A DNA stretch of 64,000 bases, taken from the NCBI GenBank assembly GCA_002898355.1, contig BEHD01000003.1, positions 1 to 64,000 on the forward strand, written 5' to 3'. The notes beneath the pieces are model-generated. The model had not been told where the DNA came from. It worked only from the letters and a program-made list of their open reading frames with translations, and ran no database searches. How positions within the stretch are numbered: the stretch's first letter is position 1; every line of letters starts with the position of its first letter. Shown here piece by piece: positions 236-32,628 of the stretch. A program made the position numbers and the translations under genes. Source of the DNA: an archaeon HR01. Its GTDB lineage: Archaea > Thermoproteota > Nitrososphaeria_A > Caldarchaeales > Caldarchaeaceae.

Positions 236-374
236 ACTCCATGCCCTAATTACTGTCAGGAGTACAATCATACTCAGGGTTTTCTTTTACCATACGTTGT
301 GGCTTAATTCATTGTATTATTTCCGGTCTCTAAGCCGTGTAGGTGCGTTTTCCGAGGGTGGTTTTATGGGCCGG

Positions 375-390
375 GGGGTTTTGAAACCCC
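375..390 (-). terminator. Hairpin just downstream of tRNA-Ala(GGC)
   Basis: Read on the minus strand this is GGGGTTT-CA-AAACCCC, a perfect 7-bp inverted repeat starting 2 nt after the tRNA 3' end. It could act as a processing or termination structure for the tRNA transcript. Its shape also resembles a T-arm. The function is inferred from position only. Confidence 0.4.
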
Positions 391-392
391 GA

Positions 393-498
393 TGGACCGG
401 GCGGGACTTGAACCTTATCGGCCAGTTCAACTTCTAGGAGCTGGCTCGCGACCTCCCGCACGCCAGGCGGGCGATCTTCCAGGCTGATCTACCGGCCC
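393..498 (-). tRNA. tRNA-Ala (anticodon GGC) with an intron in the T-stem
   Basis: The 106-nt gene folds into a 74-nt tRNA once 32 nt are removed. The acceptor is GGCCGG-type with G3:U70, the AlaRS identity pair, and the discriminator is A. The anticodon stem CCCGC/GCGGG encloses the loop CTGGCGT, giving anticodon GGC. The T-stem GCGGG/CCCGC around TTCAAGT can only form if 415-446 is excised, so the intron interrupts the T-stem between positions 51 and 52 instead of the usual 37/38. A TATA-like element at 521-533 lies about 28 nt upstream. CCA is not encoded. Confidence 0.93.
415..446 (-). other. 32-nt non-canonical tRNA intron with bulge-helix-bulge
   Basis: On the RNA strand the exon sequence GTCG pairs with the intron sequence CGAT to form a 4-bp central helix. 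It is flanked by 3-nt bulges CG|A at the 5' site and AA|G at the 3' site. The inner helix is GCCAG/CTGGC closing a 15-nt loop. Cutting at the standard positions within both bulges regenerates exactly the GCGGG T-stem. The outer helix is weak, so this is a relaxed BHB. The tRNA-splicing endonuclease is the expected processing enzyme. Confidence 0.9.
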
Positions 499-520: not shown

Positions 521-554
521 ACTAATAAGTTTTCATGGCTAAACACTTAAATTA
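521..554. promoter_or_regulatory. Divergent TATA elements for tRNA-Ala and pgk
   Basis: Two archaeal TATA-like boxes lie back to back. One reads ACTTATTAGT on the minus strand (521-533), about 28 nt before the tRNA-Ala 5' end. The other reads CTTAAATTA on the plus strand (546-554), centred 26 nt before the pgk ATG at 576. The second spacing implies a leaderless pgk mRNA. Confidence 0.6.
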
Positions 555-575: not shown

Positions 576-1778
576 ATGGTGGATTTTCTCTCTATTGATG
601 ACTTGGAACTGGCTGGGAAGAAGGTCTTCGTCAGGGTTGACATCAACACACCTGTGGACCCGTCCTCGGGTAGGCTGATGGATTTGGGGCGGATTAGGGA
701 GGCTTCTGTAACAATTCGGGCCCTCAGCAAGTCGGCGGTGGTTGTGGGCTCCCACCAGGGCAGGGTGGGGAGGAGCGACTACATATCCCTAAAACAGCAC
801 CGTGAAGCCCTCTCAAAGATGCTGGGGACCGAGGTGAAGTTTGTGGAGGATGTGTTCGGTGAGGCGGCGAGAAACGCCATAGACCGGTTGAACGAGGGCG
901 AGGTTCTCATGCTGGAAAATCTAAGGTTTGCGGCCGAGGAAAACTATGAATACAGCTTCGAGGATGCCGCCAAGACCCATCTCGTCTCCAACCTAGCACC
1001 CCATCTGGACGCATGCGTCTTAGACGCCTTCCCCACAGCCCATAGGGCCCACCCATCCATAGTAGGCTTCGCCGAAGTCCTACCCACATGCGCAGGTCTC
1101 CTAGTTGCCAGGGAGCTCAAGGCCCTGACCAGGATTATAGCCACATCCAAGGCTCCCTACACAGCGGTGCTGGGCGGTGCAAAGGTCTCCGACAGGCTGG
1201 AGGCGATAAACGCCCTCATATCCAACGGCAAAGCCGACAACGTCCTCCTCACAGGATTGATAGCCCTAGTATTTCTCAGGGCTGCCAAGGTCCTCAAAGC
1301 CAGTCTGGACCCGGAGCTGGAGCGATACGTTCCCAAAGCAGCCGAACTACTCTCCCGCTACAGGGAAAACTTCCACCTACCCGAAGACCTGGCCATAATG
1401 AAGGACGGTGAAAGGGTAGAGGTGGATGTGAGGGAGCTGGGAGATGCTAAGCCCCTCGATATAGGCATCAAAACCATCGACAAATTCTCCAGAATTATCA
1501 AGAGCTCGGGCACCGTCTATATGAGCGGCCCGCCCGGAGCCTTCGAGTTGAAGGGCTTTGAGAAGGGCACGCATGAGCTGCTTATGGCTACCGCCACCTC
1601 TCTAGCCACAACGATAGTGAGCGGCGGCCACCTCACCACATCTATGGAGACGTTAGGGGTCAAGGAGTGGATAGACCATGTCAGCACAGCTGGCGGCGCC
1701 CTTGTAATGTTTCTTGCGGGCGAGAGGCTTCCGCTAATAGAGGCCCTTAAGAGGGCTGCCGCCAGACACAAGAGATAG
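576..1778 (+). CDS. pgk: Phosphoglycerate kinase
   Basis: This enzyme interconverts 1,3-bisphosphoglycerate plus ADP with 3-phosphoglycerate plus ATP in cytosolic glycolysis and gluconeogenesis. The 400-residue length fits archaeal Pgk. Visible family motifs are VRVDINTPV near the N-terminus, GSHQGR, GGAKVSDRL in the hinge region, SGPPGAFE, and the C-terminal nucleotide-binding SGGHLTT. I chose ATG 576 over the in-frame TTG 561 because the TATA box at 546-554 places transcription start at or next to 576. The HAD gene follows 42 nt later on the same strand. Confidence 0.95.
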   Translation: MVDFLSIDDLELAGKKVFVRVDINTPVDPSSGRLMDLGRIREASVTIRALSKSAVVVGSHQGRVGRSDYISLKQHREALSKMLGTEVKFVEDVFGEAARNAIDRLNEGEVLMLENLRFAAEENYEYSFEDAAKTHLVSNLAPHLDACVLDAFPTAHRAHPSIVGFAEVLPTCAGLLVARELKALTRIIATSKAPYTAVLGGAKVSDRLEAINALISNGKADNVLLTGLIALVFLRAAKVLKASLDPELERYVPKAAELLSRYRENFHLPEDLAIMKDGERVEVDVRELGDAKPLDIGIKTIDKFSRIIKSSGTVYMSGPPGAFELKGFEKGTHELLMATATSLATTIVSGGHLTTSMETLGVKEWIDHVSTAGGALVMFLAGERLPLIEALKRAAARHKR

Positions 1779-28102: not shown

Positions 28103-28119
28103 GGGGGACATGAACCCCC
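28103..28119 (-). terminator. Hairpin downstream of tRNA-Ala(CGC)
   Basis: On the minus strand GGGGG-TTCATGT-CCCCC forms a 5-bp hairpin with a 7-base loop, 20 nt after the tRNA 3' end. It could be a terminator or processing structure. The loop resembles a tRNA T-loop. Confidence 0.35.
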
Positions 28120-28139: not shown

Positions 28140-28213
28140 TGGACCGGCGGGGATTTGAACCCCGGACCTTCCGCGTGCGAGGCGGACGATCTTCCAGACT
28201 GATCTACCGGCCC
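28140..28213 (-). tRNA. tRNA-Ala (anticodon CGC), intronless
   Basis: A 74-nt cloverleaf. The acceptor GGGCCGG/CCGGTCC includes the G3:U70 Ala identity pair, with discriminator A. The D-arm is GATC/GATC, the anticodon stem TCCGC/GCGGA with loop CTCGCAC gives CGC, and the T-stem CGGGG/CCCCG encloses TTCAAAT. It is nearly identical in acceptor and D-arm to the intron-containing tRNA-Ala at 393-498. CCA is not encoded. Confidence 0.95.
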
Positions 28214-32512: not shown

Positions 32513-32553
32513 TGCGGGGGTAGCCAAGCCTGGTCAAAGGCGGCAGGCTTAAG

Positions 32554-32570
32554 ATCCCATATGGTAGGGG
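32554..32570 (+). other. 17-nt canonical tRNA intron (37/38)
   Basis: The intron lies between AAG and ACCTGC of the anticodon arm. The exon CTTA can pair with the intron TAGG in a 4-bp central helix, with bulges AG|A and GG|A at the splice sites and a minimal intron hairpin between. This is a standard archaeal bulge-helix-bulge. Confidence 0.88.
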
Positions 32571-32583
32571 ACCTGCTCCCGTA

Positions 32584-32597
32584 GAGGAGCCGCGGAA
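32584..32597 (+). other. Possible second 14-nt intron in the variable arm
   Basis: Removing these bases turns an unusual 27-nt variable arm into a 13-nt arm with stem CCC/GGG and loop GTA. A short CCG/CGG helix with bulges TA|G and AA|G could form the splicing motif. The pairing is short (3 bp), so this is a proposal only. Confidence 0.5.

Positions 32598-32628
<31 letters not shown>

Follow-up and report, generated by a model that had tools for sequence, protein, structure and literature searches.

The tRNA-Ala(GGC) gene of the 64,000-nt stretch of DNA analysed here (hereafter, the window) is interrupted by 32 nt that almost certainly represent a protein-spliced noncanonical archaeal tRNA intron, which would be cut out by EndA and whose flanking exons would be joined by RtcB. 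Comparison with relatives confirms, at the level of sequence, that the intron is real: its insertion site is shared, its helix covaries, and intronless orthologues exist. On the same comparative grounds, the intron is part of a sequence-related family that occupies one site, between tRNA positions 51 and 52, in several tRNA species of the Caldarchaeales. Both this spread and a hairpin/complement trailer downstream of the gene had been overlooked in a previous sequence-only reading of the window. The coordinates of all features are listed in Table 1.

Table 1. Features of the tRNA-Ala(GGC) locus and of the comparison gene in the window
Feature	Position	Strand	Basis or remark
tRNA-Ala(GGC) gene with intron, 106 nt	393..498	-	No other Ala(GGC) gene found in the genome, which is 93% complete
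5' exon, tRNA positions 1-51	447..498	-	Splice search and cloverleaf
Noncanonical intron, 32 nt, at 51/52 (T-stem)	415..446	-	Same site in 22 tRNA genes of Caldarchaeales
3' exon, tRNA positions 52-73	393..414	-	Splice search and cloverleaf
BHB central helix, exon strand GTCG	449..452	-	Splice search geometry
BHB central helix, intron strand CGAT	417..420	-	Splice search geometry
5' bulge CG^A, predicted cut 447/446	446..448	-	Geometry; cleavage inferred
3' bulge AA^G, predicted cut 415/414	414..416	-	Geometry; cleavage inferred
Intron-side helix, 5' strand GCCAG	441..445	-	Covariation over 22 introns
Intron-side helix, 3' strand CTGGC	421..425	-	Covariation over 22 introns
Trailer hairpin GGGGTTTCAAAACCCC	375..390	-	Found at this position after each of the 7 tRNA-Ala genes of the order that have the intron; compensated stem changes
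Trailer complement CCGGCCCA, exact complement of tRNA nt 1-7 (GGGCCGG) plus A, abutting the hairpin	367..374	-	Predicted pairing with nt 1-7, p about 1
TATA-like TTATTA, 25-30 nt upstream of tRNA-Ala(GGC)	523..528	-	Read from sequence; putative promoter
pgk (phosphoglycerate kinase), divergent neighbour of tRNA-Ala(GGC)	576..1778	+	In relatives, pgk flanks an intronless tRNA-Ala(GGC)
tRNA-Ala(CGC), intronless comparison gene	28140..28213	-	63/74 identical to spliced Ala(GGC)

Read on the minus strand from 498 to 393, the gene consists of the 5' exon GGGCCGGTAGATCAGCCTGGAAGATCGCCCGCCTGGCGTGCGGGAGGTCGCG, the intron agccagctcctagaagttgaactggccgataa (lower case) and the 3' exon GGTTCAAGTCCCGCCCGGTCCA. 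In the splice search, removal of the intron yielded a 74-nt cloverleaf with the anticodon GGC and every arm whole, the T-arm being GCGGG-TTCAAGT-CCCGC. The insertion is assigned to 51/52 because the T-stem GCGGG/CCCGC draws bases from both flanks. The intron begins and ends with A and the adjoining exon bases are G; therefore, its boundaries are fixed and cannot slide. The best single-intron solution scored 78.5 and the runner-up 62.5, and other splice solutions were rejected on this basis. The position and length proposed in the sequence-only reading, with a T-arm that forms only after removal of the intron, were thus correct to the base, and its use of the second tRNA-Ala gene as the intron-free comparison was well chosen (Table 1). 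The exons are contiguous and in normal order, which rules out a split or permuted tRNA. The gene was missed by ARAGORN and by a window-wide Rfam scan; it was recovered at 35.5 bits in a genome-wide RF00005 search.

In six neighbouring genes, GCC or GCT accounts for 140 of 198 Ala codons. Because this codon use coincides with a single Ala(GGC) gene, the tRNA has to be functional, provided that the assembly lacks no further copy; however, the gene lies 393 bases from the contig end of an incomplete draft, and thus a second copy could be missing. It is very improbable that the gene is a decayed pseudogene carrying an unspliced insertion: standard scans miss it and a related genome (G005) holds a similar intron-bearing gene beside an intronless one, but no other Ala(GGC) gene was recovered from the window genome, a flawless cloverleaf results from its exons, and other genera share the insertion site, the ends and the helices.

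The splice ends fit a 3-4-3 bulge-helix-bulge (BHB), with two 3-nt bulges around the 4-bp helix GTCG/CGAT that includes one G.U pair. The sequence-only reading had proposed this same geometry, with the bulges CG|A and AA|G, and it holds. The exon-side outer helix is poor, with a G.G mismatch beside the central helix. In shuffled introns, the central helix combined with a 5-bp intron helix occurs at a probability of 8.6e-5. RNAfold gave a probability near zero for the central helix in the free precursor, and BHB recognition would therefore depend on the enzyme. The central helix thus appears to rest on comparative support rather than on predicted stability in the free precursor.

This comparative support came from pattern searches of all 44 genomes of the order, which identified 22 distinct introns exactly at 51/52 in 15 genomes, with a pattern in which intron bases 1-2 and most of the final five were prescribed. 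The host genes encode tRNA-Ala (GGC, TGC and CGC), Val(CAC), Asn(GTT), Thr(CGT), Arg (TCT, CCT and CCG) and Lys(CTT). At bases left free by the pattern, a C that pairs with G49 is present in every intron (22/22), and the 4-bp central helix is intact in all of them. Pairing in the intron-side helix is kept in most members, and base changes on both sides were found at four of its five positions (C-G/G-C, C-G/A-T, A-T/C-G and G-C/C-G/A-T/T-A). The introns of the Ala, Val, Asn and Thr genes mostly have AGYCAG...YTGRCCGATAA in common. A DNA search against 60 relatives also returned full-length intron-bearing matches, the first of them in another genus with 89% identity, and T-stem introns of the same type were among the matches listed for a looser pattern in which only GGTC and the T-loop side were fixed. 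With a narrower pattern, no member was found outside the order in 398 genomes of the phylum. A search of IMG/VR with the intron pattern gave eight matches; none is a tRNA, and viral carriers of the intron were rejected on this basis. One tRNA-Ala(GGC) gene of the order (L131 in G038) has a second noncanonical intron, 19 nt long and located in the D-arm, besides the one at 51/52, and is also followed by the trailer.

The pgk gene next to tRNA-Ala(GGC) is 70-72% identical to those of Candidatus Pelearchaeum and of an assembly labelled Caldarchaeum subterraneum. Pelearchaeum is placed in Candidatus Caldarchaeales, formerly Aigarchaeota (PMC10547907), and the source organism is a member of the Pelearchaeum family in this order. 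The window genome belongs to the same family as G001, but to a different genus; G001 is probably Pelearchaeum maunauluense, because its pgk-linked tRNA and downstream sequence equal those of that record. Placement in the TACK group, which the sequence-only reading had drawn from the intron, is borne out by pgk and by the position of Pelearchaeum, although the intron alone is weak evidence for placement.

Two PF01974 proteins, of 180 and 211 aa, are encoded in the genome. The 180-aa protein, an EndA alpha, matches the catalytic EndA subunit of Aeropyrum pernix (3P1Z chain B; 9.2e-50). It keeps the Tyr/His/Lys positions, and its KPR lines up with K44-P45-R46 in the crenarchaea-specific loop; these loop residues have been tied to cleavage and possibly to broad substrate use (PMC12397907). 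The 211-aa protein has F and A/S at the positions of the catalytic Tyr and His of the M. jannaschii enzyme and retains the Lys and the fold, and would be, as expected, the structural EndA subunit. RtcB is also encoded, in pieces on contigs C27 and C6. The genome thus encodes enzymes matching a broad-specificity EndA route, with the (alpha-beta)2 assembly and its activity predicted from the protein families. In the proposed route, the precursor would be transcribed with the intron inside the T-stem, and the BHB in which exon GTCG pairs with intron CGAT would be recognised, and cut at CG^A and AA^G, by an EndA of the two-gene (alpha-beta)2 type that has the crenarchaeal specificity loop. RtcB would then join the exons, and only after this step could the T-arm arise, and hence the mature tRNA-Ala(GGC) that GCC/GCU codons require.

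The window genome is intron-rich elsewhere too. The tRNA-Leu(TAA) gene (32514-32628, plus strand) has two introns, one of 17 nt at 37/38 (32554-32570) and probably one of 13 nt in the variable arm (32585-32597); without both, its V-arm becomes TCCCGTAGGGGTTC, as in relatives. Multiple introns are also described for tRNA-Leu(UAA) of C. subterraneum (PMC3293823). Introns of 25-33 nt lie in or beside the D-arm of tRNA-Glu(TTC), Lys(TTT), Ser(GGA) and Thr(GGT) at four further loci (L041, L042, L043 and L045), for which the tRNA model gave 3' partial matches only. In addition, an identical 92-nt tRNA-Lys(CTT) with a D-arm intron is present at two contig ends (C11:72240-72331 and C12:6-97) with different downstream sequences; this pair represents either a repeat at which the assembly broke off or two separate copies.

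Downstream of tRNA-Ala(GGC), on the minus strand (392-367), the sequence TC is followed by the hairpin GGGGTTTCAAAACCCC and then by CCGGCCCA. This trailer contains CCGGCCC, whereas the tRNA's own acceptor strand is CCGGTCC, whose U70 forms the tRNA-Ala pair G3.U70; each of the eight complete Ala trailers has C in place of this U, giving full Watson-Crick pairing. Within the order, a trailer follows each of the seven tRNA-Ala genes that have the intron (in G040 it is cut off by the end of the contig) but only 2 of the 26 intronless Ala genes examined, namely a GGC gene in G035 and a TGC gene in G043, one of which (L203) came from the trailer pattern search itself (Fisher p = 8.4e-6, relatedness ignored). 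In pattern searches, the trailer was absent from the other genomes of the phylum sample and had no match in viral contigs. It does not follow 13 of the 22 tRNAs with the intron, namely those for Val, Asn, Arg and Thr, and the idea that it is a feature of all 51/52-intron tRNAs was therefore rejected. Among 104 other tRNAs examined, an exact 7-nt complement of the 5' strand was found once, in a Pro gene with a different layout. Pairs 5-6 of the hairpin are TT/AA, AT/AT, CT/AG or CC/GG, i.e. compensated.

Partition functions calculated for six precursors at 37-75 C predict that nt 1-7 pair with the trailer at 87-100% and hardly at all with the mature strand; for the window gene, folding predicts that the trailer wins nt 1-7 after splicing as well. 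A role of the trailer in helping the BHB to form was rejected, because these calculations gave no gain in any of the six precursors at 37, 60 or 75 C. In G001 and G004, tRNA-Lys(CTT) genes with a 51/52 intron (L213 and L214) are followed by a strong hairpin ending in TGGGCCCA, which is complementary to the 5' strand and may be self-pairing only; since GGGCCC is a palindrome and this trailer is self-folding, the match gives weak support. A T-arm-like hairpin, GGGGGTTCATGTCCCCC, also occurs on the minus strand of the window (28103-28119) shortly after the intronless tRNA-Ala(CGC), and is possibly a tRNA 3' fragment.

At the pgk locus, the intron was found only in the window genome; the pgk-side tRNA-Ala(GGC) of G001, G002, G004 and G005 has neither intron nor trailer. 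G005 contains an additional, intron-bearing Ala(GGC) gene elsewhere, and 34 of its 50 upstream bases match those of the window gene. Exon differences hint that the window gene may be a mosaic of a resident 5' half and an imported 3' half, but this upstream match to the intron-bearing G005 copy speaks against it. G035 and G038 seem to share a locus that is intronless in G035 and intron-bearing in G038, with 34/50 upstream bases matching. Trailer linkers measure 2 nt in the f1 and f2 families but 6 nt in f4, and this correlation with family favours an old age with repeated loss, whereas the presence of the intron in different isoacceptors points to a degree of movement or to anticodon changes. 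The distribution is explained about equally well by vertical descent with losses and by movement. The locus combines an orthologue without the intron, relatives that show covariation and enzyme genes that fit, and provides a clear case for the gain and loss of archaeal introns away from the anticodon.

As to the nature of the trailer, it is possible, though far from assured, that it is a relic, a second copy of the tRNA 3' end that recombination or integration of a mobile element left behind when the intron was gained. The trailer segment GGTTTCAAAACCCCCCGGCCCA resembles the 3' exon GGTTCAAGTCCCGCCCGGTCCA, and PMC3293823 describes tRNA 3' ends as common integration sites and proposes such an integration for tRNA-Thr in Caldiarchaeum subterraneum. 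However, in other families the T-arm likeness has gone, yet the hairpin and the complement are retained and their changes compensated; all complete Ala copies have C rather than U at the U70 position; and searches of viral contigs revealed no tRNA with either the intron family or the trailer. Even if non-functional, the trailer still marks how the intron-bearing version of the gene spread or descended.

RNase P and tRNase Z use the acceptor/T-arm unit of a tRNA. A T-stem intron poses an order problem, because this unit cannot exist before splicing, and a trailer that complements the 5' acceptor strand would be a concrete and testable answer. We tentatively consider, with slightly less confidence than we give to a relic, that the trailer acts as a provisional acceptor/T-arm, its hairpin stacked on GGGCCGG:CCGGCCC so as to mimic the coaxial acceptor-T-arm stack. 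The 5' end would thereby be protected, or made processable by RNase P, before splicing, and the true T-arm and tRNase Z would resolve the structure afterwards. The appeal of this reading lies in the layout: the hairpin adjoins the 7-nt complement in just the way that, in a tRNA, the T-stem adjoins the acceptor strand. The reading is also consistent with the skewed occurrence of the trailer among Ala genes, the compensated pairs 5-6, the predicted pairing of nt 1-7 in the six precursors and the full Watson-Crick match created by C at the U70 site. A strict link between intron and trailer is opposed by the two intronless carriers, by the many intron-bearing tRNAs without a trailer and by the predicted persistence of the trailer pairing after splicing; the lack of any BHB gain in folding also argues against a provisional acceptor. 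As an unlikely elaboration, the trailer might be a built-in maturation switch, in which a surrogate acceptor with G3-C70, and thus without the G3.U70 mark, would form first and the true acceptor only after splicing.

It is also rather unlikely that the trailer is a transcription-termination or RNA-stability hairpin with the complement of the 5' strand as a G+C-rich by-product. The trailer comes immediately after the gene, the tRNA-Lys trailers with a similar match are self-folding, and GGGCCC is a palindrome; however, no T-run follows the trailer, and the rarity of an exact 7-nt complement among other tRNAs contrasts with its presence in all eight complete Ala trailers.

A partial literature search found no published description of the trailer, and the module after intron-bearing tRNA-Ala genes is apparently previously undescribed. 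The T-stem intron itself is a further case of an already known class, noncanonical archaeal tRNA introns, which include T-arm sites in Caldarchaeales (PMC4090602, PMC8450103, PMC3293823). Like the noncanonical BHB introns of PMC4090602 and PMC8450103, it is short, protein-spliced in all probability, bounded by BHB ends and located away from 37/38, and its host genome is rich in introns and encodes two EndA subunits. The examples given in PMC4090602 (20/21, 22/23, 25/26, 29/30, 30/31, 45/46, 53/54, 56/57, 59/60, 'etc.') do not include position 51/52, but that list is open-ended and we make no claim to a first. The tRNA introns of Candidatus Caldiarchaeum subterraneum, from the same order as the window organism, include those at 24/25 and 45/46 of tRNA-Thr(GGU), and the main text of PMC3293823, as far as available, mentions no Ala intron. 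As in the Thermoproteales type, sequence-related introns occupy noncanonical sites in different tRNA species; unlike that type, the family described here belongs to another order, keeps to the single fixed site 51/52 and, in tRNA-Ala, is accompanied by a linked 3' trailer module.
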